Below, one piece after another: positions 2,403-44,414 of a stretch of 64,000 bases of DNA. The translations under genes and the position numbers were made by a program. The DNA comes from Oceanicola sp. 22II-s10i (lineage in GTDB: Bacteria > Pseudomonadota > Alphaproteobacteria > Rhodobacterales > Rhodobacteraceae): positions 1 through 64,000 of the forward strand of contig NZ_AQQU01000014.1 in the NCBI RefSeq assembly GCF_002210105.1, written 5' to 3'. Every line of letters starts with the position of its first letter. Within the stretch, counting starts at the first letter, position 1. The notes under the pieces were generated by a model. It was not told the DNA's origin and did not search any database. It saw only the letters and a list, made by a program, of their open reading frames with translations.

Positions 2403-2432
2403 TTGACCAATTTTTCTAACATCTGTTAGGCT
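2403..2432 (+). promoter_or_regulatory. Promoter of transporter module A with overlapping palindromic operator (site 1)
   Basis: A -35-like TTGACC (2403-2408) and a weak -10-like TAGGCT (2427-2432) are 18 bases apart. CTAACATCTGTTAG (2416-2429) is a perfect 6-bp-arm palindrome covering the spacer and the -10. The same palindrome recurs upstream of five other operons in this window, so a shared, probably TetR-family, repressor is inferred. Confidence 0.6.
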
Positions 2433-2495
2433 TCGCGGAGAGACTTGGTAAATAAACCAGGCAAACCTCTGAATTTAGAGGTGGGAGGAGGAACA

Positions 2496-2588
2496 ATGCG
2501 AGGAAAACTCGTAACCAACGAAAAACCGTGCGGTCAGGCTATGCGCGCCTCCATGAGGTGTGGGGCAAAAGCACGGGCCGCAACATGA
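2496..2588 (+). CDS. Short leader ORF (30 codons) translationally coupled to the module A ATPase gene
   Basis: ATG 2496 sits just after a strong ribosome site (GGAGGAGGAAC, from 2484). The frame runs 30 codons to TGA 2586-2588, which overlaps the ATG of the transporter ATPase gene at 2585 as ATGA. The peptide is basic and Arg/Ala-rich, with no recognisable domain. The ATPase gene itself has no good ribosome site, so coupling through this small frame is plausible. It might instead be the misread 5' end of the ATPase gene after a frameshift. No function is claimed. Confidence 0.4.
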   Translation: MRGKLVTNEKPCGQAMRASMRCGAKARAAT

Positions 2589-3364
2589 CCACGAATAACG
2601 GGCACGTATCCTCACCGCTTGCGGTGCGTGGTGCAACTTTGAAATTTGGCGGTGTGACCGCGCTCGACGATGTGAGCATTTCTGTGGCCGACGATGAATT
2701 GCTTGCAATTATCGGACCGAACGGAGCCGGAAAAACATCACTTCTAAACGTGACTGCGGGCTTCTACCGTCCGCAGAAGGGCCGTGTCGAATTGTCCGGG
2801 CAGGACGTGACCGGCCTGCGTGTTGACCAGATCGCCCGGCGCGGTCTGGCGCGGACGTTTCAGGGCACCCATCTTTTTGCCGGGCAGACGGTGGTGGAAA
2901 ACATTATGATCGGCCGCCACATGCTGATGAAATCGAATGTAGTCCAGGCTTTTTTCCAGTTCGGTCCCGTGATGCGCGAGGAATCGGAACATCGTGAAGC
3001 CGCAGAGGAGATCATCGATTTTCTCGAGATCGAGGCAATCCGCAACCGGCCCGTGGGCACGTTGGGGTATGGGTTGCGCAAGCGTGTCGATCTGGGCCGT
3101 GCATTGGCGCAGGAACCGTCGATCCTGCTGATGGATGAACCGATGGCCGGCATGAACTCGGAGGAAAAAGAAGACCTGGCGCGCTTCATTCTCGATGTGC
3201 GCGAGGCGCGCAAGATTCCGGTAGTTCTGGTGGAGCACGACATGGGCGTCGTGATGGACCTTGCCGACCGGATCGTGGTGCTGGATTTCGGGCGGGTCAT
3301 CGCTGAAGGCACCCCGGAAGAAATCCAGAAGGACCCGGCTGTCATAAAGGCATATCTGGGGTAG
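2585..3364 (+). CDS. Liv-type ABC transporter ATP-binding protein (LivG-like), module A
   Basis: 259 residues from ATG 2585. An in-frame GTG at 2528 would add 19 residues that do not look like family sequence, and it lacks a ribosome site. Walker A is GPNGAGKT (about residues 44-51), the signature region reads LGYGLRKRVDL, and Walker B is LLMDEPMAGMN, where the PMAGMN form is typical of LivG. It would bind the inner face of the LivH/LivM-like permeases encoded downstream and drive uptake with ATP. It is the first full gene of module A (ATPase, acyl-CoA synthetase, two permeases, binding protein, second ATPase). The substrate is probably a carboxylic acid rather than leucine, because of the ligase gene inside the operon. 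Confidence 0.93.
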   Translation: MTTNNGHVSSPLAVRGATLKFGGVTALDDVSISVADDELLAIIGPNGAGKTSLLNVTAGFYRPQKGRVELSGQDVTGLRVDQIARRGLARTFQGTHLFAGQTVVENIMIGRHMLMKSNVVQAFFQFGPVMREESEHREAAEEIIDFLEIEAIRNRPVGTLGYGLRKRVDLGRALAQEPSILLMDEPMAGMNSEEKEDLARFILDVREARKIPVVLVEHDMGVVMDLADRIVVLDFGRVIAEGTPEEIQKDPAVIKAYLG

Positions 3365-3368
3365 CGGC

Positions 3369-5366
3369 ATGGTCAAACAACGGACAGCAATGGTCTTTTC
3401 GGACCCAGCAGTGACACATAGCGAAACCCTGCCGCAGGTTTTGCTCGCGCGAGCGACATCCACACCGACCAACCTCGCCGAACGGCACAAGCGCCTGGGC
3501 ATCTGGCGTGAATTCACCTGGGCCGATGTTCTTGACAGGGTTCGCGCCCTGGCTCTCGGGTTGGAGAACCTGGGCTTGTCGGCTGGCGAATCCGTCATGA
3601 TGATTGGCGAAAACGAACCCGAACATTTCTGGGCTGAATACGCCGTCCAGTCGTTAGGCGGCAAAGTCCTGTCTGTCTATCCGGATCAAAACGCTGAAGA
3701 GATTCTGTATCTGGCCGAAGACTCGCAAACGCGGATTTTTCTGGCACAGGATCAGGAGCAGGTCGATAAATGCATCGAGATTGCGGGCAAGTACTCGGGC
3801 GCCCTGGCGGTCGTTTACTGGGACGATTCCGGTCTGTGGGGCTATGATCATCCCCTGTTGCATTCGTTTGAAAGTGTGAGCGCGGCAGGGCGTCAGATCC
3901 ACGCCAAGGAACCCGCCAGATTTGAAGAACACGTAAAACGTGGACGGGCGGACGATACCGCCTTGCTGTCCTATACCTCGGGTACCACGGGAAAACCCAA
4001 GGGCGTTGTCATCAGCCATCGCTACCTGTTCGACAATTGCTCGCGGGTGATGGGGGCAATCGAAATCGCGCCGGGCACCGAATACCTGACCTACATTTCG
4101 CCGGCCTGGGTCACGGAACAGATTTTCGGCCTGTCGATCGGTTTGATCGCGCCCATGGTCGTCAACTTCCCCGAAGGCCCTGAAGACGTACTGACCAACA
4201 TTCGCGAACTGGCGGTCGACGCACTGGTGTTCAGCCCGCGCCAGTGGGAAAATCTCGCCTCCATCGTTCAGGCCCGGATGCTGGGGGCGGGTAAAATCCG
4301 CAATGCGATGTACAACTGGGGTATGAAGGTCGGCCACGACGTTTATGTGGAACGGCTGGAGGGGCGTAGCCCCAGCCTTGCCGCACGCCTGCAGCTTCCC
4401 TTTGCCGAAGCTCTGGTGCTGCATCACCTGCGCGACAATCTTGGCCTTGGTAAGGCCAAAAACGCAATGAGCGGCGGCGCCCTGATGGCACCTGACGTCT
4501 TTCGTATGTTCCACGCGATGGGGGTTAAGCTGCGCAACGTGTATGGCGCGACCGAAATCGGCCTTCTGACCGCGCATGTCGGCGAAAGCTATCAGCTGGA
4601 AACCAGCGGCAGCTGGATGCAAAGCAACACGAACTACGGCGAACCGCTGGAATACAGGGTCTCGGACGAAGGGGAGCTTCAGGTGCGTGGCGGATCGGGC
4701 TTCGGTGGCTATCACGGCAAGCCCGAAAAGACCGCAGAGGAATTGACCGAAGACGGTTGGTACAAGACCGGTGACGCGGTGTCGATGACCGACGACGGCG
4801 AGCTTTTGTTCTTTGACCGTGTCAAGGATATGCGCCGCCTGGCAAATGGGCACAGCTATCCGCCGCAATTCATCGAAACGCGGTTGCGGTATAGCCCCTT
4901 CATCAAGGATCTCATGACCTTGGGCGACGAAACCCGGAGCTTCGTCAGCGCGCTTATCAATATCGATATGGAAGTTCTCGGGCGTTGGGCGGAAGAGAAC
5001 AAGATCAGCTTTTCGACCTACACCGATCTCTCGCAGAAACCCAAAGTTCTGGACCTTATCAAAGGCGAAGTGGCGCGCATCAATGCGCTCCTGCCCGAAG
5101 GCTCGCGCGTGGCACGTTTTGCGAATTTTCCCAAGGAACTCGACCCGGATGAAGGCGAGTTGACCCGCAGCCGAAAGCTTCGCCGGGCCTTTCTGGAGGA
5201 ACGGTATGCCAAGCTCGTCGAGGCGATCTATGCTGGCGATGACGAGACAGATCTCGAAATCGCTGTGACCTATCAGGACGGCCGTCAAGGCGTTCTCAAG
5301 ACCACGGTTCGCGTGTCGGATGTTGAAAACGCATCGAAGGCTGCCAAGCGGCAGTCCAAATCTTAA
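3369..5366 (+). CDS. Long-chain acyl-CoA synthetase (AMP-binding), module A
   Basis: 665 residues, in the size range of large FadD/ACSBG-type ligases. It activates a carboxylic acid to its CoA thioester through an acyl-adenylate. The P-loop SYTSGTTGKPKG is near residue 200, the YGATE adenylate motif near 390, WYKTGD near 462, and a C-terminal RSRKLRR provides the lysine region. It sits 4 bases after the ATPase gene and before the permease genes, inside a transporter operon. That position suggests uptake and CoA activation are coupled, so the imported acid is trapped as its CoA ester. The ligase of module B (38,275-40,194) has the same design and a very similar C-terminal block, so the two are paralogues. 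Confidence 0.92.
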   Translation: MVKQRTAMVFSDPAVTHSETLPQVLLARATSTPTNLAERHKRLGIWREFTWADVLDRVRALALGLENLGLSAGESVMMIGENEPEHFWAEYAVQSLGGKVLSVYPDQNAEEILYLAEDSQTRIFLAQDQEQVDKCIEIAGKYSGALAVVYWDDSGLWGYDHPLLHSFESVSAAGRQIHAKEPARFEEHVKRGRADDTALLSYTSGTTGKPKGVVISHRYLFDNCSRVMGAIEIAPGTEYLTYISPAWVTEQIFGLSIGLIAPMVVNFPEGPEDVLTNIRELAVDALVFSPRQWENLASIVQARMLGAGKIRNAMYNWGMKVGHDVYVERLEGRSPSLAARLQLPFAEALVLHHLRDNLGLGKAKNAMSGGALMAPDVFRMFHAMGVKLRNVYGATEIGLLTAHVGESYQLETSGSWMQSNTNYGEPLEYRVSDEGELQVRGGSGFGGYHGKPEKTAEELTEDGWYKTGDAVSMTDDGELLFFDRVKDMRRLANGHSYPPQFIETRLRYSPFIKDLMTLGDETRSFVSALINIDMEVLGRWAEENKISFSTYTDLSQKPKVLDLIKGEVARINALLPEGSRVARFANFPKELDPDEGELTRSRKLRRAFLEERYAKLVEAIYAGDDETDLEIAVTYQDGRQGVLKTTVRVSDVENASKAAKRQSKS

Positions 5367-5381
5367 AGGAGGTCGGCGACA

Positions 5382-6266
5382 ATGGTCTATTTCATCAATG
5401 ACATCATTACCGGGGCTTTGATCGGCCTTCTGTATTCGCTGGTGGCCATGGGCTTTGTTGTGATTTACCGCGCCAGCAAGGTGTTCAACTTCGCGCAGGG
5501 CGAGCTTGTGATCATCGGCGGGTTCATCGTCTGGTTCACAACGATGCAAGCGGGGCTTAGCCTTTGGTTGTCGATACCCCTTTCGCTGGTTCTGGCCGGG
5601 CTGGTCGGGTACGCAATCGAACGGATTTTCCTGACAAAGCTGATCGGTGAATCGGTTTTCTCGATGGTCATGGTCACCGTCGGCCTTTTGATCCTGCTGC
5701 GCGGTTTGGTGCTGCTTGTGTTCGGTCCCGCGGTAAGACCCTTCCCGATCATTTTTCCGCTGAAACCCTTGTTCCTCGGCGATATGTTGATCCCGATGAA
5801 CCTCCTGATAGGTGGGATCATCACCATTGTCGCGGCCGTCGGCCTGTCGTGGTTCTTCAACCGGACCCGGTCCGGCCTCCGTATGACCGCTGTGGCGGAG
5901 GACCACGTCGTAGCTTCCTCGATGGGCATTTCGGTGAAAGGCTCGATTGCCGTTGCCTGGGTTCTCGGGGCAATCCTGTCCACAATTGGTGCGATGATCT
6001 TTCTCAGCGGCAAATCGCTGACCTTCCTGGCCTCGGATATCGGGTTCGCGGCCCTGCCGGTGGCGCTCTTTGCCGGGCTGGAATCCATCGGCGGGCTTAT
6101 CCTGGCAGGAATAATCATCGGCATCGCGCAGAGCTTGACCACCAACTACCTTGATCCGTTGATCGGTGGCTCGCTCGGCAGTGTCGTTCCATATATCATA
6201 ATGCTTGCCATTCTGCTGATCCGGCCGACCGGCCTGTTCGGCTGGCGCACAATCGAACGGGTGTAA
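5382..6266 (+). CDS. Liv-type ABC transporter permease (LivH-like), module A
   Basis: A 294-residue, strongly hydrophobic protein with about eight membrane segments. Family marks are LIGLLYSLVAMGFVVIY near the N terminus, FNFAQGELV (about residues 37-45) and a C-terminal PYIIMLAILLIRPTGLFG. It forms half of the inner-membrane channel with the LivM-like protein. A good ribosome site (AAAGGAGG) lies between the ligase stop and the ATG, 15 bases apart. It matches the LivH-like permease of module B in length and layout. Confidence 0.92.
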   Translation: MVYFINDIITGALIGLLYSLVAMGFVVIYRASKVFNFAQGELVIIGGFIVWFTTMQAGLSLWLSIPLSLVLAGLVGYAIERIFLTKLIGESVFSMVMVTVGLLILLRGLVLLVFGPAVRPFPIIFPLKPLFLGDMLIPMNLLIGGIITIVAAVGLSWFFNRTRSGLRMTAVAEDHVVASSMGISVKGSIAVAWVLGAILSTIGAMIFLSGKSLTFLASDIGFAALPVALFAGLESIGGLILAGIIIGIAQSLTTNYLDPLIGGSLGSVVPYIIMLAILLIRPTGLFGWRTIERV

Positions 6267-6269
6267 TCC

Positions 6270-7322
6270 ATGGATCCTTCTGGCGTATTCCCGACAAGCT
6301 ATCGCAGTGACAGACGTTTGATCCGAACGCGCTGGCAGTTTCTGGCCCTCGTCGTATTCATGGCTCTACTGCTGTTGGCGCCTTACCTGGTGAGCAGCCG
6401 TATCATCGCTATCCTGAATATGATGATGATCAGCGCCGTCATCGCCGTCGGGCTTCAGATCTGCACCGGCTATGCGGGCCAGATCAACCTGGGTCAGGCG
6501 GCGTTCATGGGGGTCGGCGCCTATACGGCCTCGATACTGGCCTCGAAGACCGGCCTTACGTTTCTGCTGACCATTCCTCTGGCCGGGCTCTCGGCTGCGC
6601 TGTTCGGCTTTCTCTTTGGCTTGACCGCGGCGCGGATCAAGGGGTTCTATCTGGCACTGACCACGATTGCAGCTCAGTTCCTGTTCCACTTTGCCGTATT
6701 GAACCTGCCGTCAACCTGGCTGGGTGGATCGAACGGTATCACCGTGCCCCCGGCCGAGCTTTTCGGGCAGCGATTTGTCAGCGAATCTTCGCAGTTCTAT
6801 CTGAATTTCGCCGTGACCGCGATCATGGTGGCGGGCGCGTTCGGGATCGTTCGGTCACGCTTCGGCCGTGCCTTCGTGGCGGTCAGGGATGATGACGTGG
6901 CCGCGGGTATAATGGGGATCAATGTCGCGGCCACAAAGGCAAATGCCTTCCTGATCGGCGCTTTCTATGCGGGCGTCGGCGGGGCGCTTTGGGCCTATCT
7001 GATCCGCTTCGTGGGGGTAGACCAGTTCACCCTGTTTCACTCGATCTTCTTCGTCGCGATGATCATCGTCGGCGGGATGGGTTCAATCGTGGGGGCCCTG
7101 ATCGGCGTCTTCATTATCCGCATCATCCAGGAAATTATCGCGACGGTCGGCCCCAATATCGCCGACTCGGTATCATTCCTTGGCGGTGACATCGTGTTCG
7201 CTGGCATGAATGTCGTTCTTGGCGGCGTGATCGCATTGTTTATGATCCTCGAACCCAAGGGGCTGATGCACCGCTGGAACATCCTGAAGTCGTCATACCG
7301 TATCTGGCCGTTTCCTTACTGA
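6270..7322 (+). CDS. Liv-type ABC transporter permease (LivM-like), module A
   Basis: 350 residues with about nine to ten membrane segments. TGYAGQINLGQAAFMGVGAY (about residues 68-87) is the LivM hallmark, and the C terminus ends EPKGLM as in family members. It pairs with the LivH-like permease whose stop lies 3 bases upstream. The last residues (about 330-350) are cytoplasmic and basic. The start is the ATG right after the upstream stop, and no better alternative is seen. Confidence 0.92.
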   Translation: MDPSGVFPTSYRSDRRLIRTRWQFLALVVFMALLLLAPYLVSSRIIAILNMMMISAVIAVGLQICTGYAGQINLGQAAFMGVGAYTASILASKTGLTFLLTIPLAGLSAALFGFLFGLTAARIKGFYLALTTIAAQFLFHFAVLNLPSTWLGGSNGITVPPAELFGQRFVSESSQFYLNFAVTAIMVAGAFGIVRSRFGRAFVAVRDDDVAAGIMGINVAATKANAFLIGAFYAGVGGALWAYLIRFVGVDQFTLFHSIFFVAMIIVGGMGSIVGALIGVFIIRIIQEIIATVGPNIADSVSFLGGDIVFAGMNVVLGGVIALFMILEPKGLMHRWNILKSSYRIWPFPY

Positions 7323-7356
7323 GAAATAGAGCGGCTCTAAACCTGGGAGGAAGAAT

Positions 7357-8595
7357 ATGACTTACCAATCGAATCGAGGTCTTCGCGGCTTACTGGCAGC
7401 GGCTGCCTTGGCGGCCGCGGCGACCATGCCTTTGAAGGCGCAGGCCGAAGAGACCTATAATCTGGCCCTGCTGTCGGACTTTTCCGGCCCTTATGCTGAC
7501 ATCATGCCCATCCTGGCAGGCGGACGCGAAGCTGTGTTCACCTGGTGGAATGAAACCCGCGGCAAGGAACTTGGCGTCACGCTGAACTACAAAAACTACG
7601 AAACCCGCTATGACGCGGCACAGGTGGCAAGTCTCTGGCCCGGGATCAAATCGGAACTGGACCCGATTGCGGTTGTCGGCCTCGGCGGGCCTGACGTCGC
7701 GGCCCTTTCCGAACGCCTGCCGGAAGACAAAATCCCGATGTTCATGGCCACAGCGGCCTACGGTTTTGCCTGGCAACCGGATGCCTGGATTTTCAACCCA
7801 CGCCCGACCTATTCGCACGAAAGTGTCGGCTTTCTAAACTGGATGCGTGAACAGCGCGGAGGAGACGAACCGCTCAAGGTTGCGATCCTCGCCTCCGAAG
7901 CATCGCCTGCCTATGTCGACATGGCAAAGGGCCTTGAACTCTATGCCGAAGAGCACCCCGAGGAGATCGACCTCGTCGAGGTCATCTATACCGAAGTTCA
8001 ACCCACCGATCTGACGGGGCAAATGCGCCGCGTTGTACGAGCCGGGGCCGAGGCGCTGGTAATCCAAACGAACACCTCTATCGTGGTTGCCGCGAAACGT
8101 GGGCTGCAGGCCAACGGGGCGAACATCCCGATCATGATGAGTTCGCATAACGGGCTTCCAGCCTCGGGTGGCGCGCTTGGCGGGCTTGAGCAAATGGAGG
8201 GGGACTTTGAAGCCTACGGCATGGCGATTGCGGCCGATGAGGACACTCCCGCGCGACAATTCTACGAGACATTGGTTGCCGATTACGGACTCGAAGCACC
8301 TTGGAACGTCGTGACCGCAATGGGCGTATCTCAGGGTCTCTATACCGTGACCGTGATCGATCACGCGATCGAGGCGAACGGCGCCGAGGGCCTGACCGGA
8401 GAGATGGTACGTGAGGCGCTTTTTGCCAAACCGATCACCACCGAAGAAACCCATGGGTTCCTGCCGACCTTGTCCTTTACGCCAGAAGCGCCGTTCCCAT
8501 TGGAAGGCCTCAAAGTGAATGTGGGCACCGTCAAAGATGGGAAAATCACCATCGCGGCAACGGGTGTCGACGTTCCGCAAGTTGAGAAATGGTGA
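7357..8595 (+). CDS. ABC transporter substrate-binding protein (LivK-like), module A
   Basis: 412 residues. The N terminus is a signal peptide: basic start, Ala/Leu core, likely cleavage after ALKAQA near residue 30, so the protein is periplasmic. It has the two-lobe type I binding fold of branched-chain amino acid / urea / aromatic acid receptors, opening with YNLALLSDFSGPYAD. It binds the substrate and delivers it to the module A permeases. It differs clearly from the two module B binding proteins, so the two modules probably take different substrates. A strong hairpin follows the stop codon (8604-8625). Confidence 0.9.
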   Translation: MTYQSNRGLRGLLAAAALAAAATMPLKAQAEETYNLALLSDFSGPYADIMPILAGGREAVFTWWNETRGKELGVTLNYKNYETRYDAAQVASLWPGIKSELDPIAVVGLGGPDVAALSERLPEDKIPMFMATAAYGFAWQPDAWIFNPRPTYSHESVGFLNWMREQRGGDEPLKVAILASEASPAYVDMAKGLELYAEEHPEEIDLVEVIYTEVQPTDLTGQMRRVVRAGAEALVIQTNTSIVVAAKRGLQANGANIPIMMSSHNGLPASGGALGGLEQMEGDFEAYGMAIAADEDTPARQFYETLVADYGLEAPWNVVTAMGVSQGLYTVTVIDHAIEANGAEGLTGEMVREALFAKPITTEETHGFLPTLSFTPEAPFPLEGLKVNVGTVKDGKITIAATGVDVPQVEKW

Positions 8596-8603
8596 ATTAA
8601 TCC

Positions 8604-8625
8604 GGGCGCCGCAGTCGCGGCGCCC
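8604..8625 (+). promoter_or_regulatory. Intra-operon hairpin after the module A binding-protein gene
   Basis: GGGCGCCGC (8604-8612) and GCGGCGCCC (8617-8625) form a perfect 9-bp GC-only stem with a 4-base loop, 8 bases after the stop codon. No T-run follows and the next gene continues on the same strand. It is therefore more likely a mRNA 3'-end stabiliser or partial terminator that raises binding-protein yield than a full terminator. Confidence 0.6.
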
Positions 8626-8650
8626 GTTCTGATCCTTAGCCCCGGGCAAT

Positions 8651-9448
8651 ATGACCATGCTGGAACTCAACAACGTAGAGGTGACATATTCCGACGTCAT
8701 CCTGGCGCTCAAAGGCGTGTCCATGACAGTCCGTGCGGGACAATGTGTTGCTCTGCTCGGTGGCAATGGCGCAGGAAAAAGCACGACGCTTAAAGCCATC
8801 TCGGGAACGCTCAAATCCGAGGATGGAACCGTTTCGGCGGGGTCCATCGTTCTGGACGGAACTCCCATTCAGAACATGGAAGCCTCGGAAGTCGTGAAGA
8901 ACGGTCTCATCCATGTGATGGAAGGGCGGCGCGTTTTGCGGCATCTGACGTCAGAGCAAAACCTGATCGTCGGCGGGCACATGGTGCCCAACTCCGCCGA
9001 GCTGAAAAAGCGCCTGGACCATGTTTACACCTTGATGCCCCGGCTTGCGGACCTGCGCAACCGCACCTCTGGCTTCATGTCTGGTGGCGAACAACAACTG
9101 CTGCTGATCGGCCGGGCCATGATGGCCAGCCCCAAGATCATCGCGATCGACGAACCGTCGTTGGGATTGGCCCCGATGATGATCCGGGATGTTTATGAAG
9201 TGCTCAAGCAGCTCAAGTCAGAAGGCACGACCTTCTTCCTGGTCGAACAAAACAGCGCCGCGGCGCTATCGATCGCCGACTATGCCTATGTGATGGAGAA
9301 CGGCCGGATCGTGATGGACGGCCCTGCCGACAAGCTCGCTGACAACGAGGACATCAAGGAATTCTATCTCGGCGTCACCGCATCGGGCGAGCGCAAAAGC
9401 TATCGAGATATCAAACACTATCGCCGCCGGAAGAGATGGCTGGGCTGA
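8651..9448 (+). CDS. Liv-type ABC transporter ATP-binding protein (LivF-like), module A
   Basis: 265 residues. Walker A is GGNGAGKST, the signature is MSGGEQQLLLIGRAM, and Walker B is IAIDEPSLGLAPMM, the LivF form. It is the second ATPase of the module A importer. The C-terminal tail SYRDIKHYRRRKRWLG is rich in basic residues; the module B LivF ends with a very similar tail (HNVKHYSRRKRWLS), so the tail is a shared feature of this transporter subgroup. The start could also be the second ATG, 6 bases further on. It lies 55 bases after the binding-protein gene, behind a hairpin. Confidence 0.92.
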   Translation: MTMLELNNVEVTYSDVILALKGVSMTVRAGQCVALLGGNGAGKSTTLKAISGTLKSEDGTVSAGSIVLDGTPIQNMEASEVVKNGLIHVMEGRRVLRHLTSEQNLIVGGHMVPNSAELKKRLDHVYTLMPRLADLRNRTSGFMSGGEQQLLLIGRAMMASPKIIAIDEPSLGLAPMMIRDVYEVLKQLKSEGTTFFLVEQNSAAALSIADYAYVMENGRIVMDGPADKLADNEDIKEFYLGVTASGERKSYRDIKHYRRRKRWLG

Positions 9449-9461
9449 GGAGAAGGAATTC

Positions 9462-17736: not shown

Positions 17737-17763
17737 TTCCATGCCTCCTCGTCCAATCTGGTG

Positions 17764-18573: not shown

Positions 18574-18601
18574 GGTTCTATTTCCTCCGTGGGGTATTGA
18601 G

Positions 18602-23226: not shown

Positions 23227-23236
23227 CTTCACTGCC

Positions 23237-24094: not shown

Positions 24095-24117
24095 TTGCTT
24101 TCCTCCCTTAGTTGCCG

Positions 24118-25269: not shown

Positions 25270-25272
25270 GGC

Positions 25273-26900: not shown

Positions 26901-26933
26901 AAACGGTGGACAACCAAAAGGGTGGACAATCAA

Positions 26934-29314: not shown

Positions 29315-29343
29315 AATCTAACAAGTGTTTTATTTCCTGGCAA
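29315..29343 (-). promoter_or_regulatory. Promoter of the ACAD gene at 28,122 with degenerate operator (site 5)
   Basis: On the minus strand TTGCCA (29343-29338), 17 bases, TAGATT (29320-29315). The overlapping CTAACAAGTGTTTT (29318-29331, plus strand) keeps one full arm and most of the other. The geometry is the same as in sites 3 and 4. Confidence 0.55.
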
Positions 29344-31171: not shown

Positions 31172-31213
31172 TGGCGTGGTCTCCTTGAGTTTTGCGATAA
31201 GGTTTCAACCGAG

Positions 31214-31996: not shown

Positions 31997-32007
31997 TCAA
32001 GTCTCCA

Positions 32008-32784: not shown

Positions 32785-32824
32785 GATACCTGCTTCGCTT
32801 TCTCGGGACAATCTAACTGCGGAA

Positions 32825-32858
32825 AGCTTCCCCGCGACATGTCTGCCGCGGGGAAGCT
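32825..32858 (-). promoter_or_regulatory. Strong hairpin after the module B binding-protein gene
   Basis: AGCTTCCCCGCG (32825-32836) and CGCGGGGAAGCT (32847-32858) are perfect 12-bp arms with a 10-base loop, 5 bases after the stop of the binding-protein gene. Only a short T-run (TTT) follows on the minus strand. It is probably a partial terminator or mRNA stabiliser separating the transporter from the crotonase genes. Confidence 0.65.
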
Positions 32859-32863
32859 CTGTC

Positions 32864-34114: not shown

Positions 34115-34216
34115 GTTCTCTCACTCCCGTTGGTTTGGTTTGGTTTGGGGCTGTGATACCGCTTTGCAAACGCCGCTGCCGCCCCGCGTAGCGTCGCCCT
34201 TCCTGCTACCAGTCTT

Positions 34217-35455: not shown

Positions 35456-35488
35456 TTTTTCCTCCCTGAACAGTTTTCGAATAGTACG

Positions 35489-36304: not shown

Positions 36305-36309
36305 TTCCC

Positions 36310-37383
36310 TTATTTCTTGAACTGATCGAAGGGCCAGACCATCAGGTAGTCTCTGATGTTGCCGTAGAGTTTTCCCAAACCAAGCGGTTCGATCAGAAGG
36401 ATAATGACGATCAGCGCGCCATAGACCGCGTTGGGGATGTGGGCGAGCGTTTCAACGTTGATCTGCATGCCAAGCCCGTCACTCAGCGTGACGACGAGAC
36501 CGTTCACGATACCCGGAACAAGAAGGATCAGGGCAACACCGAAATAGGAACCGATAATGCTGCCAAGGCCGCCAACAATCACCATCGCAAGAACCTGGAT
36601 CGAAACGGCAACCGAGAATTGCTCGGGTGCGGCGAGAAAGAAAAAGGTGGCAACAAGCAACGCACCGCTGACGCCTGCGATGAACGAAGAAGTCGCGAAT
36701 GCGAGGATTTTGTAGTAGAAACTGTTCACACCCAGGATCGCGGCGGCAAAGTCTTTTTCCCGGACAGCGACCAAGGCGCGACCGAGTCCAGTACGCTTGA
36801 GATTAAGCATGAAGATCGTCACCAACACACACCAGCCGAAGGCGACATAGTAGAAGCCAGTATCAGTGGTAATCTCTTGCCCCAACAACGCCAGCGTCGG
36901 CGACTGGAGCGATGCGTGTGAGCCCCCCGAGATCGCCGGCGAGTGGGTCAGAACCCAGTCCATCACGAACTGCATCGCAAGAGTGGTAAGGGCGAGATAG
37001 AGGCCCTTGACCCGCAAAGCGGCAAAAGCGAACAGGCTGCCGATCACGGATGACGTCAACCCGCCAATGATCAGGGCGAATTCCCACGGCACCCCGAAAC
37101 GCGCGGCATGGATAGACGAATACGCTCCGACGGCCATGACCGCAGCATAGCCCAAGTGCAGTTGGCCGGCCCAACCTGTCACCAGGTTCAGCCCCAAAGC
37201 GGCGGCCGTCCAGATCAGCCAGGGAAGCATGTAGCTGTTCAGATAAAGCGACGGGATGATGAATGGCGCGGCAAGGCCGATCAGAAAGATGAAAGCTGTC
37301 AGATTTCTGTCGGCAGGCACCTTGAAGATACGGCTGTCCGAAACGTAGTCGGCGTGATGGACGCCGGAAAGTCTGTAAAACAT
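36310..37383 (-). CDS. Liv-type ABC transporter permease (LivM-like), module B
   Basis: 357 residues with about ten membrane segments. The hallmark VTGWAGQLHLGYAAVMAVGAY is a variant of the LivM loop, and the C terminus contains LIEPLGLGKLYGN. It pairs with the LivH-like protein, whose gene ends 3 bases before this start. The roughly 25 residues before the first membrane segment (HHADYVSDSRIFKVPADRN) are hydrophilic. Confidence 0.92.
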   Translation of the reverse strand: MFYRLSGVHHADYVSDSRIFKVPADRNLTAFIFLIGLAAPFIIPSLYLNSYMLPWLIWTAAALGLNLVTGWAGQLHLGYAAVMAVGAYSSIHAARFGVPWEFALIIGGLTSSVIGSLFAFAALRVKGLYLALTTLAMQFVMDWVLTHSPAISGGSHASLQSPTLALLGQEITTDTGFYYVAFGWCVLVTIFMLNLKRTGLGRALVAVREKDFAAAILGVNSFYYKILAFATSSFIAGVSGALLVATFFFLAAPEQFSVAVSIQVLAMVIVGGLGSIIGSYFGVALILLVPGIVNGLVVTLSDGLGMQINVETLAHIPNAVYGALIVIILLIEPLGLGKLYGNIRDYLMVWPFDQFKK

Positions 37384-37386
37384 GCC

Positions 37387-38274
37387 TTACACCCTTTCGA
37401 TGTCGTGACGACCGAACAGCCCGTGCGGACGGATCATGACGGTAAGAATGAGCACGGCGGCGACGATAAGCTCACGGCTTCCGCCTCCGACAAGCGGATC
37501 GAGGAAATCAGCGCCAACGTTTTCGACGACGCCCAGGATGATGCCTGCGATCACGGCGCCAAGGATACTGTCGAGACCACCGAGAACGGCAACCGTCAGA
37601 CCTTTGAGAAGCAACAGCGACAGCGCCTGATCGACACCCTGAATCTCACCCCAGATGACGCCAGCGGCGACGGCAACAACGGATGCCAATGCCCAGGATA
37701 ACCCAACGCCGCGCTCAACCGAGATACCTACCGACCACGAAGCCATGTAATCATCCGCGATCGCCCGCAACTTGATCCCGGTCCGGGTTTGGAAGAACAG
37801 CATGAAGCCGACAAACAAGGCAAGCGCGACACCGGCACCGACCAGATGGATGCGGCTGATGAAGATGTCGCCCAGGAACAGCGGATCATAGCTGACGCCC
37901 AGTTCCATCGAACGCGACGTTCCGCCCCAGATGGCAAGTGTCGTACCCCGCAGGAATATGTCGAGGCCAAGTGTCAGCATCAGGATCATGACGACCGGGC
38001 GACCCGCGAGACGACGCAGGGCAACACGCTCGATGCCGAACCCAAGGCCGAACATGACAACCGCAGCCAGAGGAATGGCCAGCCACAAGGGCAAACCCAC
38101 ATCGCGCGCCAGCGCCAGGACCACATAGGCACCCACCATGGTCAGCCCACCCTGCGCCAGATTGGGCACCGAGGACGCTTTGTAAATCAGCACGAGGCCG
38201 ATGGCGAAAAGCGAATATAACAGACCCGTCAAGGCTCCGTTGATCGCAAGCTCTGATAGAAAGACCCAGTCCAT
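37387..38274 (-). CDS. Liv-type ABC transporter permease (LivH-like), module B
   Basis: 295 residues, about eight membrane segments. Marks are NGALTGLLYSLFAIGLVLIY, VPNLAQGGLTMVGAY and a C-terminal LILTVMIRPHGLFG. The ATG directly follows the TAA of the ligase gene (no gap), with an AGGGAGG ribosome site inside the ligase end, so translation is coupled. It is parallel to the module A LivH-like gene, which also follows its ligase directly. Confidence 0.92.
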   Translation of the reverse strand: MDWVFLSELAINGALTGLLYSLFAIGLVLIYKASSVPNLAQGGLTMVGAYVVLALARDVGLPLWLAIPLAAVVMFGLGFGIERVALRRLAGRPVVMILMLTLGLDIFLRGTTLAIWGGTSRSMELGVSYDPLFLGDIFISRIHLVGAGVALALFVGFMLFFQTRTGIKLRAIADDYMASWSVGISVERGVGLSWALASVVAVAAGVIWGEIQGVDQALSLLLLKGLTVAVLGGLDSILGAVIAGIILGVVENVGADFLDPLVGGGSRELIVAAVLILTVMIRPHGLFGRHDIERV

Positions 38275-40194
38275 TTATACCTCCCTGACGGGAAGGCTTC
38301 TTTCGACCTTCCCTACTTCCCCGGTCTCGTAAGTCACCTGCGCGCTTACGTGGACCTCTTTTGAACCGTCGTAGAGCGCCGCGATCACGTCAGCATAGCG
38401 TTCCTGAACGACCTTGCGCCGCAGTTTTCGTGTCCGTGTGATTTCACCATCGTCCGGGTCGAATTCTTTCGGCAGACTGACAAAGCGTTGCAGGCGCAAT
38501 GGCTCGGTGACGGCCTTGTTGACCCGTTGGAACGCCTCGCGAAGCAACGTCGCGACCTCTTCACGCTGAGAAAGATCGGCATATGACACGTAAGGTACGC
38601 CGTTCACTTCGGCCCAGTGCCCCACGGCCTCGAAATCCACGCAGACCATCGCCGTCAGTTCCTTCAGCCCGGCGCCAATCACGGCCGCATCCTTGATATA
38701 CGGGCTGAATTTCAACCGGTTCTCGATGTAGTTTGGAACGTAACGTTCACCGTCGGCGGTGTGCATGACCTCGGATACACGCCCAAGAACAACCAGGTGT
38801 CCGTCGTCCTCCAGATAGCCGGCATCACCTGTATGCAGCCACCCGCCGTCAAGGGCTTCGGCGGTCGCTTCGGGTTTGTTGAAGTACCCTTCAAACACGC
38901 TGTCCGAGCGCACCAGGATCTCACCGTCTTCGGCAATGCTGACCTCGACGCCAGGCGCGGGTTTGCCAACCGTATGAAGACGGACCTCGCCCGGAGCCTG
39001 AATCGCGTTGATCGCGCTGTTCTCGGTCTGGCCGTAGAGCTGACGCAACTTGATCCCCAGGGCGCGGTAGAACACAAAGGTGTCTTCCCCGATCGCTTCA
39101 CCGCCGGTGAACGCATTCTTGAGGCGGCTCATCCCGAACTGGTCCTTGATCGGACCGAAAACAATCGCCTCGCCCAGAAGCCGGCCCAATGGCTCAAGAA
39201 CACCGCCGCTTTTGCCATTCAGCTTGCGCGTTTCCGCCGCGATGGCCCGATCCATGAAAAAATGGTACAGCCATTTCTTTAAAGGGGTCGAATTTTCGAT
39301 ACCAACCTGGATTGTCGTCAGCATCTGGTCCCAGCTTCTTGGCGCCGCCAGATAGAATGTCGGAGCGATCTCGCGCATGTCGCGCACGACCGTTTCCTGG
39401 CGCTCAGGCACATTCACGGTGAAACGCCAAAGGAGTGCCGCGGCAACGGTTATGGCGTAGTCTCCCACCCAGGCCATCGGCAAGTACGCGAGGATCTCCT
39501 CATTTTCGCCGAAGGCACCCGCCGCATGTCCATTCCGAGCAGCAGCAAGAACGTTCTTCTGACTCAGTACGATGCCCTTCGGCGCGCCCGTCGTTCCGGA
39601 GGAGTGCAGAAAAATGGCCGGATCTTCCGGCTTCGCACGACTAAGCAGTTCCTCACTCAGGCCCGGGGTTTCGTTCAGATCGTGCTGACCAACTTCGATC
39701 AGGTGATCCCAGGACAACAGCCCTTCAACCTCGTAGAAGCCAAGACCGCGCGCTTCATCATAAATGATGTGGTCGATGCCCTCGGCGCCCGCGTCCTTCA
39801 GTTCCAGGATCTTGTCAACCTGTTCCTGATCTTCGGCGATGGCCGCGACGATTTCGACTTCGCCAAGAAAGTGCCGGAGTTCTTCGAGCGTCGCGCCGGG
39901 ATAGGCAGGCATTGCATAGGCACCCAGCAACGAAATAGCCAGCATTCCGCCATACAGCCGCGCCCGGTTGTCGCCCAGGATAAGCACCGCCTTGCCCGGT
40001 GTTACGCCGATTTTCTCAAGCCCGGCCGCGCAGGCCAGCACCTCTTCGGCGTATTCCGCCCATGTGGTTTCCTTCCAGATCCCACGCTCTTTTTCGCGAA
40101 GCGCGATTTCCGAACCGTGTTTCGAGGCGTTCCGCGCCAGAATTGCGCCGATCGTGTCGCCGCCCGAAGACTGTTTCTTCGTCAAATCAGTCAT
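38275..40194 (-). CDS. Long-chain acyl-CoA synthetase (AMP-binding), module B
   Basis: 639 residues. The P-loop HSSGTTGAPKG is near residue 196, followed by YGQTENSA and LHTGDAGYLEDDGHLVVLGR. The C-terminal DDGEITRTRKLRRKVVQERY is nearly the same as the matching block of the module A ligase. It activates the imported acid to its CoA thioester. It starts 8 bases inside the LivG-like gene and is followed without gap by the LivH-like gene, so ligase and transporter are made as one unit. Confidence 0.92.
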   Translation of the reverse strand: MTDLTKKQSSGGDTIGAILARNASKHGSEIALREKERGIWKETTWAEYAEEVLACAAGLEKIGVTPGKAVLILGDNRARLYGGMLAISLLGAYAMPAYPGATLEELRHFLGEVEIVAAIAEDQEQVDKILELKDAGAEGIDHIIYDEARGLGFYEVEGLLSWDHLIEVGQHDLNETPGLSEELLSRAKPEDPAIFLHSSGTTGAPKGIVLSQKNVLAAARNGHAAGAFGENEEILAYLPMAWVGDYAITVAAALLWRFTVNVPERQETVVRDMREIAPTFYLAAPRSWDQMLTTIQVGIENSTPLKKWLYHFFMDRAIAAETRKLNGKSGGVLEPLGRLLGEAIVFGPIKDQFGMSRLKNAFTGGEAIGEDTFVFYRALGIKLRQLYGQTENSAINAIQAPGEVRLHTVGKPAPGVEVSIAEDGEILVRSDSVFEGYFNKPEATAEALDGGWLHTGDAGYLEDDGHLVVLGRVSEVMHTADGERYVPNYIENRLKFSPYIKDAAVIGAGLKELTAMVCVDFEAVGHWAEVNGVPYVSYADLSQREEVATLLREAFQRVNKAVTEPLRLQRFVSLPKEFDPDDGEITRTRKLRRKVVQERYADVIAALYDGSKEVHVSAQVTYETGEVGKVERSLPVREV

Positions 40195-40993
40195 GCGACC
40201 CTCCGATATATGCCTCGATGACCCGCGGGTCCTTCACAACCTCCTTGGGGATGCCACTGGCGATCATTTCACCATAATTCAGGGCCAGCATCCGATCACA
40301 AATGCCGGTGATGACATCCATATGGTGTTCGATCAGCAGAACGCTGACGCCGCGTTCGGCACGGGCATCCAGAATGAAACGGGACATATACCCTTTCTCT
40401 TCCTGGTTCATGCCGGCCATCGGTTCATCGAGAATCAGCATCTGTGGCTCGGCCACCAATGCCCGCGCCAGCTCGACCCGTTTTTTCAACCCGATCGGAA
40501 GGCCATCGACCAACTCATGCCGGATGCTCTCGAGTTGTAGAAACTCGATCACCTCTTCGACGATCTTGCGGTTTTCGATTTCTTCACGCTGTGCTGCCCA
40601 CCAGTAAAGCGCGGTGCGCAGAACGCCCGGTTTCATGTGGATGTGCCGCCCCAGCAGGATGTTGTCCAGAACGCTCATCCCGTTGAACAAGGCAAGATTC
40701 TGGAACGTCCGGGCGACGCCGAGCTTGGCAACCTTGTGAGGTGCCGTACCCGTGATTTCCTTTCCTGCCAACCGCACAGTCCCCACATTCGGTGGGTAGA
40801 ACCCGGTAATTGCGTTCGTCAGTGTTGTCTTGCCGCTGCCGTTCGGGCCGACAAGTCCAAAGATTTCCCCCTGCCGAATGACGAGGTCCACACCGGTGAC
40901 AGCGACGATGCCGCCGAACCGTCGCTCGACCCCGCTGCACTCCAGTATCGCCCCATCATCGGCTCCGATTGCTGTTTTAATCTTAGTCGTCAT
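40187..40993 (-). CDS. Liv-type ABC transporter ATP-binding protein (LivG-like), module B
   Basis: 268 residues. Walker A is GPNGSGKTT, the signature region is LPIGLKKRVELARAL, and Walker B is LILDEPMAGMN. It is the first gene of the module B operon and is followed by the ligase, two permeases, LivF and two binding proteins. Its N-terminal 20 residues (through GADDGAILECSG) are a leader before the ATPase fold. No member of the shared palindrome family is seen upstream; 37 bases separate it from the SDR stop, so it may be co-transcribed with that gene from promoter site 4. Confidence 0.93.
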   Translation of the reverse strand: MTTKIKTAIGADDGAILECSGVERRFGGIVAVTGVDLVIRQGEIFGLVGPNGSGKTTLTNAITGFYPPNVGTVRLAGKEITGTAPHKVAKLGVARTFQNLALFNGMSVLDNILLGRHIHMKPGVLRTALYWWAAQREEIENRKIVEEVIEFLQLESIRHELVDGLPIGLKKRVELARALVAEPQMLILDEPMAGMNQEEKGYMSRFILDARAERGVSVLLIEHHMDVITGICDRMLALNYGEMIASGIPKEVVKDPRVIEAYIGGSHD

Positions 40994-41030
40994 CTAGATA
41001 TCATTGTCCCCCTAAGGTTCACGGCCAACA

Positions 41031-41885
41031 TCAGGTAATCCGGAAGTAGTCCGGCCGCCCCGTTGGCCATGGATCCCCCCACAATTGCTGCCCACCGTCG
41101 ATGTTCAGAACTTCTCCGGTTACGAATTTCCCTGAATTCGCCGCCATATAGACAACCCCTTCAGCGACATCCCATTCGTCCCCGGCGTGCCGCATCGGGT
41201 TGGAGTCCTGAAAGGTCGCAGAACCCTCCGGAGGGTAGTTCCCGAAACCGTTGCTTTCGCAGCAACCCGGCGCCACGCAGTTCACTCGGATACCGTGCGG
41301 GGCCCACTCCACCGCAACCGACTTGGACAGGTAAACTACTCCTGCCCGGGCCGCACAGGTATGCGCGATGCCGGGCATGCCGCGCCAGATATCGGCCACG
41401 ATGTTGACGATGGAGCCCGATTGCTTGTTGGCAACCCAGTGGCGCGCCGTGGATTGCATCATCCACCACGTGCCGTTCAGGTTGGTGTCTATGACCGCAT
41501 TCCAGCCCTTTGGACTAAACTCCAACGCTGCTTGCGGAAACTGACCCCCAGCATTGTTCACCAATACGTCAATCGCCCCGAACTCCTGGTTCGTCTTGGC
41601 GACAAAATCCTCGACCTGCTCAGGCTCCCGGATGGTCATAGGCACAGCGAAAACTTCGCCCCCGAAACTTTCAAGGAACTCCTTGGCCAAAGCCAGTTTC
41701 TCTTCGTTGCGTCCATTGATCGCCAGATTGGCCCCGAGCCTTGCGAACAAGGTCGCAATTGCCAGCCCCAATCCGCCTCCGGCCCCGGTCACCACAACGA
41801 CTTTGCCGGTGAATAAACCGCTTGCGTAAACGGTTGCACGTTTTGATAGGTCCTCCCTCGAAGACCCAAACTGCGTCTTATTCAC
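41031..41885 (-). CDS. SDR family protein of the 2,4-dienoyl-CoA reductase type (no Tyr-x3-Lys)
   Basis: 284 residues from GTG 41885, which follows GGGAGGAGG at the right distance; ATGs at 41906 and 41900 would place that site inside the coding part. TGAGGGLG (about 33-40) and LVNNAGG are clear. At the usual Tyr-x3-Lys site the protein reads IAHTCAARAGV, so both residues are changed, as in peroxisomal-type 2,4-dienoyl-CoA reductases and some trans-2-enoyl-CoA reductases. The C terminus is GEVLNIDGGQQLWG. It is the first gene after promoter site 4 and precedes the module B LivG gene. Confidence 0.85.
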   Translation of the reverse strand: MNKTQFGSSREDLSKRATVYASGLFTGKVVVVTGAGGGLGLAIATLFARLGANLAINGRNEEKLALAKEFLESFGGEVFAVPMTIREPEQVEDFVAKTNQEFGAIDVLVNNAGGQFPQAALEFSPKGWNAVIDTNLNGTWWMMQSTARHWVANKQSGSIVNIVADIWRGMPGIAHTCAARAGVVYLSKSVAVEWAPHGIRVNCVAPGCCESNGFGNYPPEGSATFQDSNPMRHAGDEWDVAEGVVYMAANSGKFVTGEVLNIDGGQQLWGDPWPTGRPDYFRIT

Positions 41886-41923: not shown

Positions 41924-41952
41924 AATCTAACGGGTGTTAGAAAATTGGTCAA
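41924..41952 (-). promoter_or_regulatory. Promoter of the SDR - module B unit with overlapping operator (site 4)
   Basis: On the minus strand TTGACC (41952-41947), 17 bases, TAGATT (41929-41924), the best promoter match of the set. CTAACGGGTGTTAG (41927-41940) has one mismatch in the palindrome arms. The 15 bases around TTGACCAATTTT are nearly the same as at site 1, in front of module A. Confidence 0.65.
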
Positions 41953-41989
41953 GACAACTTTTCCCACCAGCCCCGCCCGTTATCTCCGA

Positions 41990-43156
41990 TCAGTAAGACT
42001 TTGGAAGTCCAAGGGCTTTTTCTGCTATGAACGACAGAAGCATCTGCGGTGTCACCGGTACGATGCGGAACAGCAGAGCTTCACGTACCAGTCGCTCCAC
42101 GTGATATTCCTTAGCATATCCGAATCCGCCAAACGTAATTTGCGCGGCTTCGGTCGCCTCGACCGCGGCGTCGGCGGCCAAAAGCTTGGCGGCGTTCGCC
42201 TCGACGCCGCAGGGTTCTCCCGCATCGTAGAGGGCTGCAGCGTGCATCACCATGAGATTGGCAGATTCCACTCGCGCCCAGGCTTTGGCGAGTGGATGCT
42301 GAACACCCTGATTTTGGCCGATCGGGCGGTCAAAAATCACACGTTCGTTTGCATAATGCGCCGCTCGCGCCAGTGCGTTGCGCGCAATACCGATGCATTC
42401 ACCGGCCACCAGGATGCGTTCGGGATTCAACCCGTGCAAAATTTGCCTAAAGCCTTTGCCCTCCTCCCCGATCAGGTCCTCAGCCGGAATCGGCAATCCA
42501 TCGATGAAGACTTCGTTCGAATCGACAGCCTTTCGACCCATCTTTTCGATCTCTCGCACGTCAACGAAATTTCGGTCGAGATCTGTATAGAACAGGCTCA
42601 GCCCTTCGGTCGGGCTGCTCACATCCTCTAGCCGCGTTGTTCTGGCCAGAAGCAACATCTTGTCCGCCACCTGCGCGGTAGAAATCCAGACTTTTTGTCC
42701 GTGCACGACATATCTGTCCCCCTGCCGCACCGCCATGGTCTTCAGCTTTGTGGTGTCTAACCCGGTCGTCGGTTCGGTTACGGCGAAACAGGCCTTTTCA
42801 TCGCCTGCTATTAGAGGGCCAAGCATACGCGCGCGCTGCTCATCGGTCCCAAACTTCACCACCGGGTTGAGCCCGAAAATGTTCATGTGGATGGCCGAGG
42901 CTCCGCTTGCGCCGGCCCCCGACTCGGCAATTGCTTGCATCATTATGGTCGCCTCGGTGATCCCCAGACCGGCGCCGCCGACAGCTTCTGGCATGGCGAT
43001 ACCTAGCCAGCCGCCATCGGCCATTGCCCTGTGCAGATCATGGGGAAAACCACCGTTGCGATCCCGATCCAGCCAATAGTCGTCGTCGAACCCTGCGCAA
43101 ATCCGCAGAATCTGGTCGCGAATCTCTTGTTGGTCGGCGGTCAATCGCAATGTCAT
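41990..43156 (-). CDS. Acyl-CoA dehydrogenase family protein
   Basis: 388 residues. Motifs are CFAVTEPTTGLDTTKLKT and HGQKVWISTAQVAD, as in the ACAD at 360-1523, with the likely base Glu246 in HGLNPERILVA. The C-terminal EGT motif is absent (FRIVPVTPQ). It overlaps the CoA-transferase gene by 4 bases (ATGA), so the two are coupled. Together they would activate an acid by CoA transfer and then dehydrogenate it. The gene's end faces promoter site 4, about 38 bases away. Confidence 0.92.
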   Translation of the reverse strand: MTLRLTADQQEIRDQILRICAGFDDDYWLDRDRNGGFPHDLHRAMADGGWLGIAMPEAVGGAGLGITEATIMMQAIAESGAGASGASAIHMNIFGLNPVVKFGTDEQRARMLGPLIAGDEKACFAVTEPTTGLDTTKLKTMAVRQGDRYVVHGQKVWISTAQVADKMLLLARTTRLEDVSSPTEGLSLFYTDLDRNFVDVREIEKMGRKAVDSNEVFIDGLPIPAEDLIGEEGKGFRQILHGLNPERILVAGECIGIARNALARAAHYANERVIFDRPIGQNQGVQHPLAKAWARVESANLMVMHAAALYDAGEPCGVEANAAKLLAADAAVEATEAAQITFGGFGYAKEYHVERLVREALLFRIVPVTPQMLLSFIAEKALGLPKSY

Positions 43157-44364
43157 AGCGCGCGCCCTCCCTCCAATCTTACGAGCCCAGCCTCACATAG
43201 GGCAGCGATCCGCTCATCGTTAAAACCAAGATCACGCAGAATGCTTTGGCTGTCTGCGCTAGGCGGTCGTCCCAGCCAACGAAGCTGACCGGGCGTCGCG
43301 CTGAGATGAGGGACCGGACCAATGACCTGGGTCTGTTCGCCGTCGACCGACACGATGTCCCCACGATGGCGTATCTGCTCGTTCGTCATGATCTCTTCGA
43401 CGCTCAACACACGCGAGGCAACCGCATCATGGCGGGCGAATACCGCTTCCACTTCCTTAGCCGTGTGCTGCGTGACGAAATCATTGATCGCGTCAAAGAC
43501 CACCGTCATGTGCCGCGACATCTCGCCCAATGTCGCGAACCGCGGGTCATCGGCGAGGGCATCGCCTCCGACCGCCCGCAACAGGCGCTGCGCGGTTTCC
43601 GCGCTCCCTGCCGAAACGCTCAGCCACACCCCATCGGACGTTCGGAACATCCCCCCCGGAGCAAAGTCCATCGGCTGGCGCAGCCCATTGCGTCGCGGCG
43701 AGAGGTTCGCGCCAGTCAATGCGGGAACAGGATAATCCATCAACCGAAGCAGGGCCTCGAATACTGCAATATCGACGACCTGACCGCGTACTATCCCCTT
43801 TTCGCGAGCAAATAGCGCGATCATGATTCCCAAAGCGCCCATTAGCCCTGTCGTGCTGTCAGCCGCCGGAAAGCCGGGGTGCATCGGCGGCCCGTCGGGA
43901 AAACCGGTCAGATGCGCTAATCCACTCATGGCCTCCGCAGCACGCCCAAACGCTGGCAGGTCGCGCATCGGACCGTCCTGTCCGTAACCTGAAACCCGCA
44001 AGACAACCAAGTCCGGGTTCCAATCGTGCAAGACGTCTGGCCCAACACCAGCACGTTCCAGCACACCCGGTCGGAAATTCTCGATCAGCACGTCGGCATC
44101 TTCGACCAACTTTCGCAGGATGTCCCGGCCCTCGTCGGACTTCCAGTCCAGACCTAGTGTTTTCTTGTTACGGCCCAAAGTCTTCCACCAGACGCCCACC
44201 CCATCCTCTGCCTTGGGTCCAAGGTCGCGCATCATATCCGTCCGGTTGGGGGCTTCGATCTTGATGACATCTGCACCAAAATCCGAGAGTAAAGCTGCCG
44301 CAAGTGGTCCGGCAATTACGTGACCAAGTTCTATAATCTTCAGTTGATCAAGGGGTCCAGACAT
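43153..44364 (-). CDS. CaiB/BaiF family protein lacking the usual catalytic Asp
   Basis: 403 residues from ATG 44364; a longer in-frame reading would cross promoter site 6. Family fold marks are LKIIELGHVIAGPLAAALLS, GADVIKIEAPN and a CoA-transferase core, but the nucleophile segment reads LPAFGRAAEAMSGLAHLTG, with Gly where the family III Asp usually lies. A subgroup with PGFGR or similar exists, so this may be a normal state for that subgroup. CoA-transferase activity by the usual aspartyl-CoA route is therefore doubtful. It is coupled by ATGA to the ACAD gene. Confidence 0.82.
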   Translation of the reverse strand: MSGPLDQLKIIELGHVIAGPLAAALLSDFGADVIKIEAPNRTDMMRDLGPKAEDGVGVWWKTLGRNKKTLGLDWKSDEGRDILRKLVEDADVLIENFRPGVLERAGVGPDVLHDWNPDLVVLRVSGYGQDGPMRDLPAFGRAAEAMSGLAHLTGFPDGPPMHPGFPAADSTTGLMGALGIMIALFAREKGIVRGQVVDIAVFEALLRLMDYPVPALTGANLSPRRNGLRQPMDFAPGGMFRTSDGVWLSVSAGSAETAQRLLRAVGGDALADDPRFATLGEMSRHMTVVFDAINDFVTQHTAKEVEAVFARHDAVASRVLSVEEIMTNEQIRHRGDIVSVDGEQTQVIGPVPHLSATPGQLRWLGRPPSADSQSILRDLGFNDERIAALCEAGLVRLEGGRAL

Positions 44365-44386
44365 CTGCACTTTCGACTTTGCTAAT

Positions 44387-44414
44387 TTTCTAATGGTTGT
44401 TCGATTCCTAGCAA
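44387..44414 (-). promoter_or_regulatory. Promoter of the CaiB-ACAD operon with weak operator (site 6)
   Basis: On the minus strand TTGCTA (44414-44409), 16 bases, TAGAAA (44392-44387). The overlapping TCTAATGGTTGTTCGA (44389-44404) matches 11 of 14 defined positions of the palindrome. It is the weakest of the six sites. Confidence 0.4.

Follow-up and report, generated by a model that had tools for sequence, protein, structure and literature searches.

A putative palindromic operator at six catabolic promoters of Oceanicola sp. 22II-s10i and its predicted tandem TetR repressor

Do the catabolic operons spread over a long stretch of the Oceanicola sp. 22II-s10i genome answer to one regulator and, if so, to which? 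The stretch comprises 64,000 nucleotides (contig NZ_AQQU01000014.1, positions 1 to 64,000; hereafter, the window, on contig C6 in our numbering), and the original prediction had described in it six palindromes of the form TCTAACA-N2-TGTTAGA, taken as operators through which one TetR-type regulator would control a catabolic pathway acting on CoA thioesters. Our analyses support that proposal and place the regulator on another contig, C11. We predict with high confidence that the six sites are operators of a single TetR-family repressor, a 440-residue protein with two TetR units in one chain (tandem TetR), which is encoded outside the window and for which a CoA thioester of the pathway would act as the releasing ligand.

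The palindrome and its standing against chance

The motif was handled in two forms, namely the 16-mer TCTAACA-N2-TGTTAGA and the 14-bp core CTAAC-N4-GTTAG. All six palindromes were present where they had been reported (2416, 22043, 25704, 29318, 41927, and 44390), and a catabolic operon was identified behind each of them, as had been claimed. Four sites (2416, 22043, 25704, and 41927) match the core exactly, and those at 29318 and 44390 differ from it at two positions. The 16-mer is perfect at 22042 and 25703 and has one mismatch at 2415 and 41926, two at 29317, and three at 44389, the last figure being read from the identical counterpart on a Sulfitobacter faviae plasmid described below. The sites themselves stand, whereas the accompanying count of three perfect arms was slightly off, with two perfect 16-mers and two more having a single mismatch. 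The sites are listed here with their scores under the weight matrix introduced below (ACAD, acyl-CoA dehydrogenase):

S1, 2415..2430, TCTAACATCTGTTAGG, upstream of the + strand operon 2585-10250, score 20.5
S2, 22042..22057, TCTAACAAATGTTAGA, 15 bp before the start of the - strand operon 22026-16540, score 33.0
S3, 25703..25718, TCTAACAATTGTTAGA, between divergent operons, the DUF35/OB-fold side (-) and the CoA-transferases (+), score 28.4
S4, 29317..29332, TCTAACAAGTGTTTTA, 2 mismatches, upstream of the ACAD gene 28122-29279 (-), score 27.1
S5, 41926..41941, TCTAACGGGTGTTAGA, upstream of the - strand run 41885-29487, score 28.4
S6, 44389..44404, TCTAATGGTTGTTCGA, weak, upstream of CaiB 43153-44364 and ACAD 41990-43156 (-), score 13.0

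With respect to the annotated start codons, S2 to S6 lie 15-52 bp and S1 about 154 bp upstream, positions that would fit repression.

Intergenic inverted repeats might be alike by chance, and one count agrees with this explanation: with three mismatches allowed, the 14-mer was found 93 times in the window, against 97.8 expected from shuffled sequence, so that mismatch counting alone cannot establish the two weak sites (29318 and 44390). Chance is countered by (i) the ranks from an independent weight matrix, (ii) conservation at orthologous places, and (iii) a genome-wide control. The matrix was built from 32 distinct 22-mers taken from tandem tetR promoters of relatives, with no window sequence in the training set, and its consensus is AATTCTAACAATTGTTAGAATT. 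Its ranks 1 to 6 in the window are exactly the six reported sites, and rank 7 scores 8.6; at this level, the earlier statement that no other intergenic region carries the motif holds within the window, and further sites lie on C11. In 20 simulated first-order Markov sequences of 64 kb, top scores ranged from 0.5 to 13.6 and exceeded 13.0 in 2 of the 20, which makes the site at 44389 marginal on its own.

Conservation upstream of orthologous operons had been proposed as a check, and the sites indeed recur in five other genera. The S2 site is perfect in 5/5 relatives, as is the S3 site upstream of the DUF35 ortholog (5/5); the CaiB-side comparison of S3 for relative G153 ran past the edge of the stretch and was dropped, the site being covered by the DUF35 comparison. 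Among relatives with the ortholog in the fetched stretches, the S4 place carries three mismatches in 4/4 and the S5 place one or two in 4/4, and S6 (4/4) is perfect in G189 and has three mismatches in G138, G153, and G161. Both S1 orthologs found (2/2; G153 and G189) have upstream sites, with one and two mismatches; for G138 and G161, the S1 matches (about 46%) were judged to be paralogs and left out.

Throughout the 5.11-Mb genome, the 16-mer with at most two mismatches occurs at 12 places, versus 3 for a reversed control pattern. Five of the 12 are on the window contig, five on C11 (44.8 kb), and two elsewhere; the latter, C34:301278 (about 240 bp upstream of a curlin-repeat gene) and C38:22195 (within a predicted open reading frame, ORF), were regarded as chance matches. 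On C11, the matrix matched at 9792 (36.5), 21360 (38.1, a score that is not independent because the training set includes close relatives with the same promoter), 27794 (27.7), 34994 (26.0), and 34912 (20.9) and, more weakly, at 37242 (9.7), in the promoter of a second TetR gene, TetR2. The palindrome is thereby confirmed as a real motif, beyond chance. Coincidence is already refuted for S1 to S5, S6 rests on its perfect counterpart in G189, and the probability that we leave to chance resemblance is negligible.

The tandem TetR gene as the predicted regulator

A TetR gene whose own promoter carries the motif, another check proposed with the original prediction, was found on C11:

C11:21463-22785, outside the window in the same genome, tandem tetR, encoding the 440-residue chain of two TetR units

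The protein matches PF00440 (TetR_N) and PF17932 (TetR_C_24) in two stretches each, with whole-protein scores above the cut-off, and a perfect 16-mer lies at C11:21360-21375, in the promoter region common to tandem tetR and a divergent short-chain dehydrogenase/reductase (SDR) gene. A homologue search of genome contigs found 170 relatives, of which 80 loci were kept, mostly from roseobacters but also from Hoeflea, Paracoccus, Labrenzia, Bradyrhizobium, Acidocella, and one Marinobacter. Leaving out L069, which has no upstream DNA, 79 homologues remain, of which 78 carry a site of two or fewer mismatches no more than 350 bp ahead of the aligned start or, in three Paracoccus loci, overlapping it; the site persists at homologues with as little as about 54% identity. 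At four of the loci (L083-L085 and L087), the tblastn match to tandem TetR extends over ∼1950 bp, compared with an ORF of 416 aa, and further TetR-like sequence may follow.

The two halves of tandem TetR are 41.5% identical to each other. Across 35 homologues (an alignment from which L020 and L079 were omitted as near-duplicates and to which others were added), the recognition helices of the two halves hardly vary from the segment AGS(I/V/L)YYHF, which fits a palindrome read by a single chain. An AlphaFold model (mean predicted local distance difference test score, 84.9; predicted template-modeling score, 0.83) has a two-unit fold, and the two units are thus predicted to fold together in one chain.

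In a family survey of 198 genomes (tandem TetR called at E<=1e-60, with at most eight first-look candidates scored per genome), the perfect 16-mer was present in nine genomes, six of which had at least four copies. Those with at least four perfect sites comprised 6 of the 7 genomes with tandem TetR versus 0 of the 191 without it, and the reversed control 16-mer occurred once in each of four genomes.

The same association appears on plasmids. A complete S. faviae plasmid (287,790 bp) is 100% identical to the window over positions 20861-29300 (8.4 kb compared), carries tandem tetR (99.8%), and holds eleven tandem-type sites, from 243386 across the origin to 35754, as well as the TetR2 site at 241138. 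All 12 of these cluster sites, including the TetR2 variant, are outside annotated genes, in a region of 89.3 kb with 5.8% unannotated DNA; beyond the cluster, the plasmid has four more three-mismatch places, and the control pattern matched at six. The claim of one co-regulated pathway of about 40 kb is supported as to the shared regulon but not as to its extent, with operators spanning about 80 kb. Tandem TetR was found on 42 plasmid records, and 36 of the best 40 were also among the best 40 of 47 window-segment matches, one of these 36, from Nitratireductor, covering only 12% of the window segment. Several plasmid carriers came from diatom, dinoflagellate, coccolithophore, or coral cultures. 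Tandem tetR is about 96-100% identical across many roseobacter genera (L011-L031) and sits on plasmids of conjugative, mobilizable, and non-mobilizable type, a distribution suggestive of recent spread.

Evidence against the assignment and rival regulators

Several observations weigh against tandem TetR as the owner of these sites. Many of its homologues are 97-100% identical, so that the 78 positive loci, which collapse to 32 distinct 22-mers, are not independent cases, and near-identical records from Pseudosulfitobacter pseudonitzschiae make up about half of the plasmid set. The Acidocella homologue (L080) has no site within 350 bp of tandem tetR, the perfect one there being 2.5 kb off. The seventh carrier genome in the family survey, G061, encodes its homologue (55%) at the edge of a contig and has no perfect site; a site with one core mismatch adjoins that homologue. 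In 16 genomes with divergent tandem TetRs, the count of sites with at most two mismatches exceeded the reversed control in only 6, and a whole-genome count of this kind is therefore not discriminating in divergent carriers; many of the better places in these genomes, among the matches listed, are on the contig holding tandem TetR or TetR2.

Furthermore, three family genomes without tandem TetR hold one perfect 16-mer each, one of these lone copies sitting in a 38-bp palindrome. In two of these genomes (G001 and G167; L092 and L096, position 1501), the 16-mer, TCTAACATATGTTAGA, lies between genes that, judged by eye, encode an efflux adaptor and a different TetR. These lone copies indicate that the sequence can serve another protein and that the operator alone does not identify its regulator; perhaps they belong to another regulator with the same operator. 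By extension, some other TetR or a global regulator might own all of the palindromes, with tandem tetR as merely one target. This is contradicted by the co-occurrence of multi-site genomes with tandem TetR in the 198-genome survey, as well as by the retention of the site at its gene in distant homologues, and we consider it very improbable. The window also encodes TetR proteins at 49356-49895 and 49975-50583, which were rejected as candidates because they lie beside a resistance-nodulation-division (RND) pump and have no site of the motif there. The region concerned (45113-50583) comprises an RND efflux permease and adaptor with these two single TetR genes and is devoid of regulon sites.

The main rival is TetR2:

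C11:37284-37910, TetR2, a single-unit paralogue, 35% and 38% identical to the tandem TetR halves, with a near-identical recognition helix

TetR2 accompanies tandem TetR in the same six family genomes. Its promoter, too, contains the core palindrome, and part of the sites might therefore be common to both proteins or be TetR2's own. Indeed, an exact core is found just upstream of TetR2 in 18/18 orthologue loci (L129-L135 and L158-L168; L169, a partial match where no site was found, was dropped). TetR2, or both TetRs jointly, could accordingly govern the sites, with tandem TetR controlling only a part. The outer bases, however, differ: read towards the gene, the first outer base at TetR2 promoters is C in 16/18 and G in 2, never T, and the last is T in 15/18, whereas tandem TetR sites mostly have T first and A last. 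The TetR2 operator variant, read in this direction, is mostly CCTAAC....GTTAGT. Moreover, the TetR2 site of Oceanicola scores 9.7 with the tandem matrix, compared with 13.0-38.1 for the eleven others. At E<=1e-25, we found no separate TetR2 match in Bradyrhizobium G211 or Acidocella G207, yet G211 keeps a site with one mismatch at tandem tetR (L089). The same core with different outer bases makes a shared or overlapping operator code possible, but we judge control by TetR2, alone or jointly, to be unlikely and continue with tandem TetR as the probable regulator of the six sites.

A second tandem TetR-like protein is encoded at C12:351286-352548 (L178:2787-4049, - strand), as a 420-aa ORF with two TetR_N matches; the gene diverges from an ORF that looks, on visual inspection, like an SDR gene, and the protein is absent among the TetR2 search matches.

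Predicted mechanism, pathway, and comparison with known systems

The analyses show where the sites are, that they are conserved, and which TetR gene accompanies them; from this we infer binding, repression, and a ligand as follows. Because both TetR units are complete and their recognition helices nearly match, a single molecule would probably fold as a pseudo-dimer that places one recognition helix on each half-site of TCTAACA-N2-TGTTAGA. It would repress its own gene and the other promoters bearing the site, and thereby transporters, CoA-transferases, acyl-CoA dehydrogenases, hydratases, thiolases, and carboxylases, until a CoA thioester of the pathway, probably one derived from a beta-methyl-branched isoprenoid acid, releases it. 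The operons behind the sites in the window are as follows (ECH, enoyl-CoA hydratase; ETF, electron-transfer flavoprotein):

S1, 2585..10250, +, LivG-like ATPase, acyl-CoA ligase, LivH, LivM, binding protein, ATPase, SDR (transporter A)
S2, 16540..22026, -, transglutaminase-like, MaoC, two ACADs, ECH, PaaK-like ligase (no Pfam match; named from the S. faviae annotation alone)
S3 left, 22090..25650, -, CaiB, MaoC, thiolase, ChsH2/DUF35-like OB protein
S3 right, 25755..28100, +, two family III CoA-transferases
S4, 28122..29279, -, acyl-CoA dehydrogenase
S5, 29487..41885, -, SDR, Liv-type ABC transporter B with ligase, two ECH, ETF beta/alpha
S6, 41990..44364, -, CaiB (43153-44364), ACAD (41990-43156)

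C11 adds an AtuA homologue (PF07287, 483.7 bits, ORF L006:8693-10492), biotin carboxylases, a hydroxymethylglutaryl-CoA (HMG-CoA)-lyase homologue, an old yellow enzyme-type reductase, and ligases. For each of its three carboxyltransferases, the beta chain of methylcrotonyl-CoA carboxylase (MCC) was the best or second-best PDB match, above geranyl-CoA carboxylase (5ikl). Carboxylation followed by lyase cleavage is the known route round a beta-methyl branch in the Atu and Liu pathways. MCC-type carboxylases together with the HMG-CoA-lyase and AtuA homologues point to beta-methyl-branched (isoprenoid) acids, and such an acid is, by a modest margin of confidence, our favored substrate. The operator provides a searchable tag for pathway promoters, which may aid in finding the substrate, and our assignment gives a likely regulator and operator to a large catabolic plasmid module that has spread through roseobacters and rhizobial relatives.

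The ligand-domain signature TSAN[I/V]R is kept in both halves of tandem TetR, which may therefore read two CoA-thioester signals at once. We tentatively propose, as a possibility that we would not yet favor, that tandem TetR arose by duplication and fusion of a TetR2-like regulator, with the operator core kept and the outer bases changed, and that it may respond to two inputs in switching an isoprenoid pathway carried on a plasmid. Tandem TetR offers a natural system for asking why a cell would join the two halves of a repressor dimer in a single polypeptide.

AtuR is a single-unit TetR. In the excerpts available for the systems compared here, AtuR/RdmA of Pseudomonas (acyclic terpene utilization/DSF [diffusible signal factor] degradation) is a TetR repressor in a cluster of eight genes, A-H, with AtuA, carboxylase subunits, and dehydrogenases, and its sites are printed as AGCAAGCGCTTGG and CCAAGCGCTTGCT (PMC9973270). 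The AtuA homologue and carboxylases are thus common to both systems, whereas our operator differs from the printed AtuR sites. KstR of mycobacteria is an autoregulated TetR that binds as a dimer to a 14-bp palindrome, TnnAACnnGTTnnA, at many lipid-catabolic promoters (PMC1995591), but its half-sites are spaced AAC-N2-GTT rather than AAC-N4-GTT as here. LiuQ, a TetR regulator of branched-chain amino acid utilization, is reported as unique to betaproteobacteria (PMC5343134). Spacing (KstR), operator (AtuR), and taxon (LiuQ) led us to reject all three as the identity of the regulator. In the excerpt of a paper on CrgA, the heptamers occur only in an oligonucleotide table (PMC6422896).

Among predicted folds, the best PDB match of the tandem TetR model in Foldseek was Mce3R (423 columns; root-mean-square deviation, 6.7; 16% identity), followed by single-unit TetRs including PfmR, KstR2, AibR, and FadR. 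AibR (isovaleryl-CoA complex, PDB 5k7z) and Bacillus FadR, which are among the top matches for one unit, are acyl-CoA-liganded TetRs by their entry titles but are single-unit chains. Among the literature matches listed, we recognized no paper on a tandem TetR with matched helix-turn-helix motifs (HTHs) and a palindrome governing such a plasmid regulon. Mce3R of Mycobacterium tuberculosis (PDB 9b7y) is an autoregulated tandem TetR with lipid-related targets; its HTHs are not identical, it has one ligand-binding domain, and its 25-bp operators are not palindromic (PMC11667970). Tandem TetR resembles it in having two TetR units per chain, a site at its own promoter, and predicted lipid-related targets, and differs from it in that the HTHs are nearly alike and the operator is palindromic. 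The kind of regulator is already known from AtuR, KstR, LiuQ, and Mce3R.

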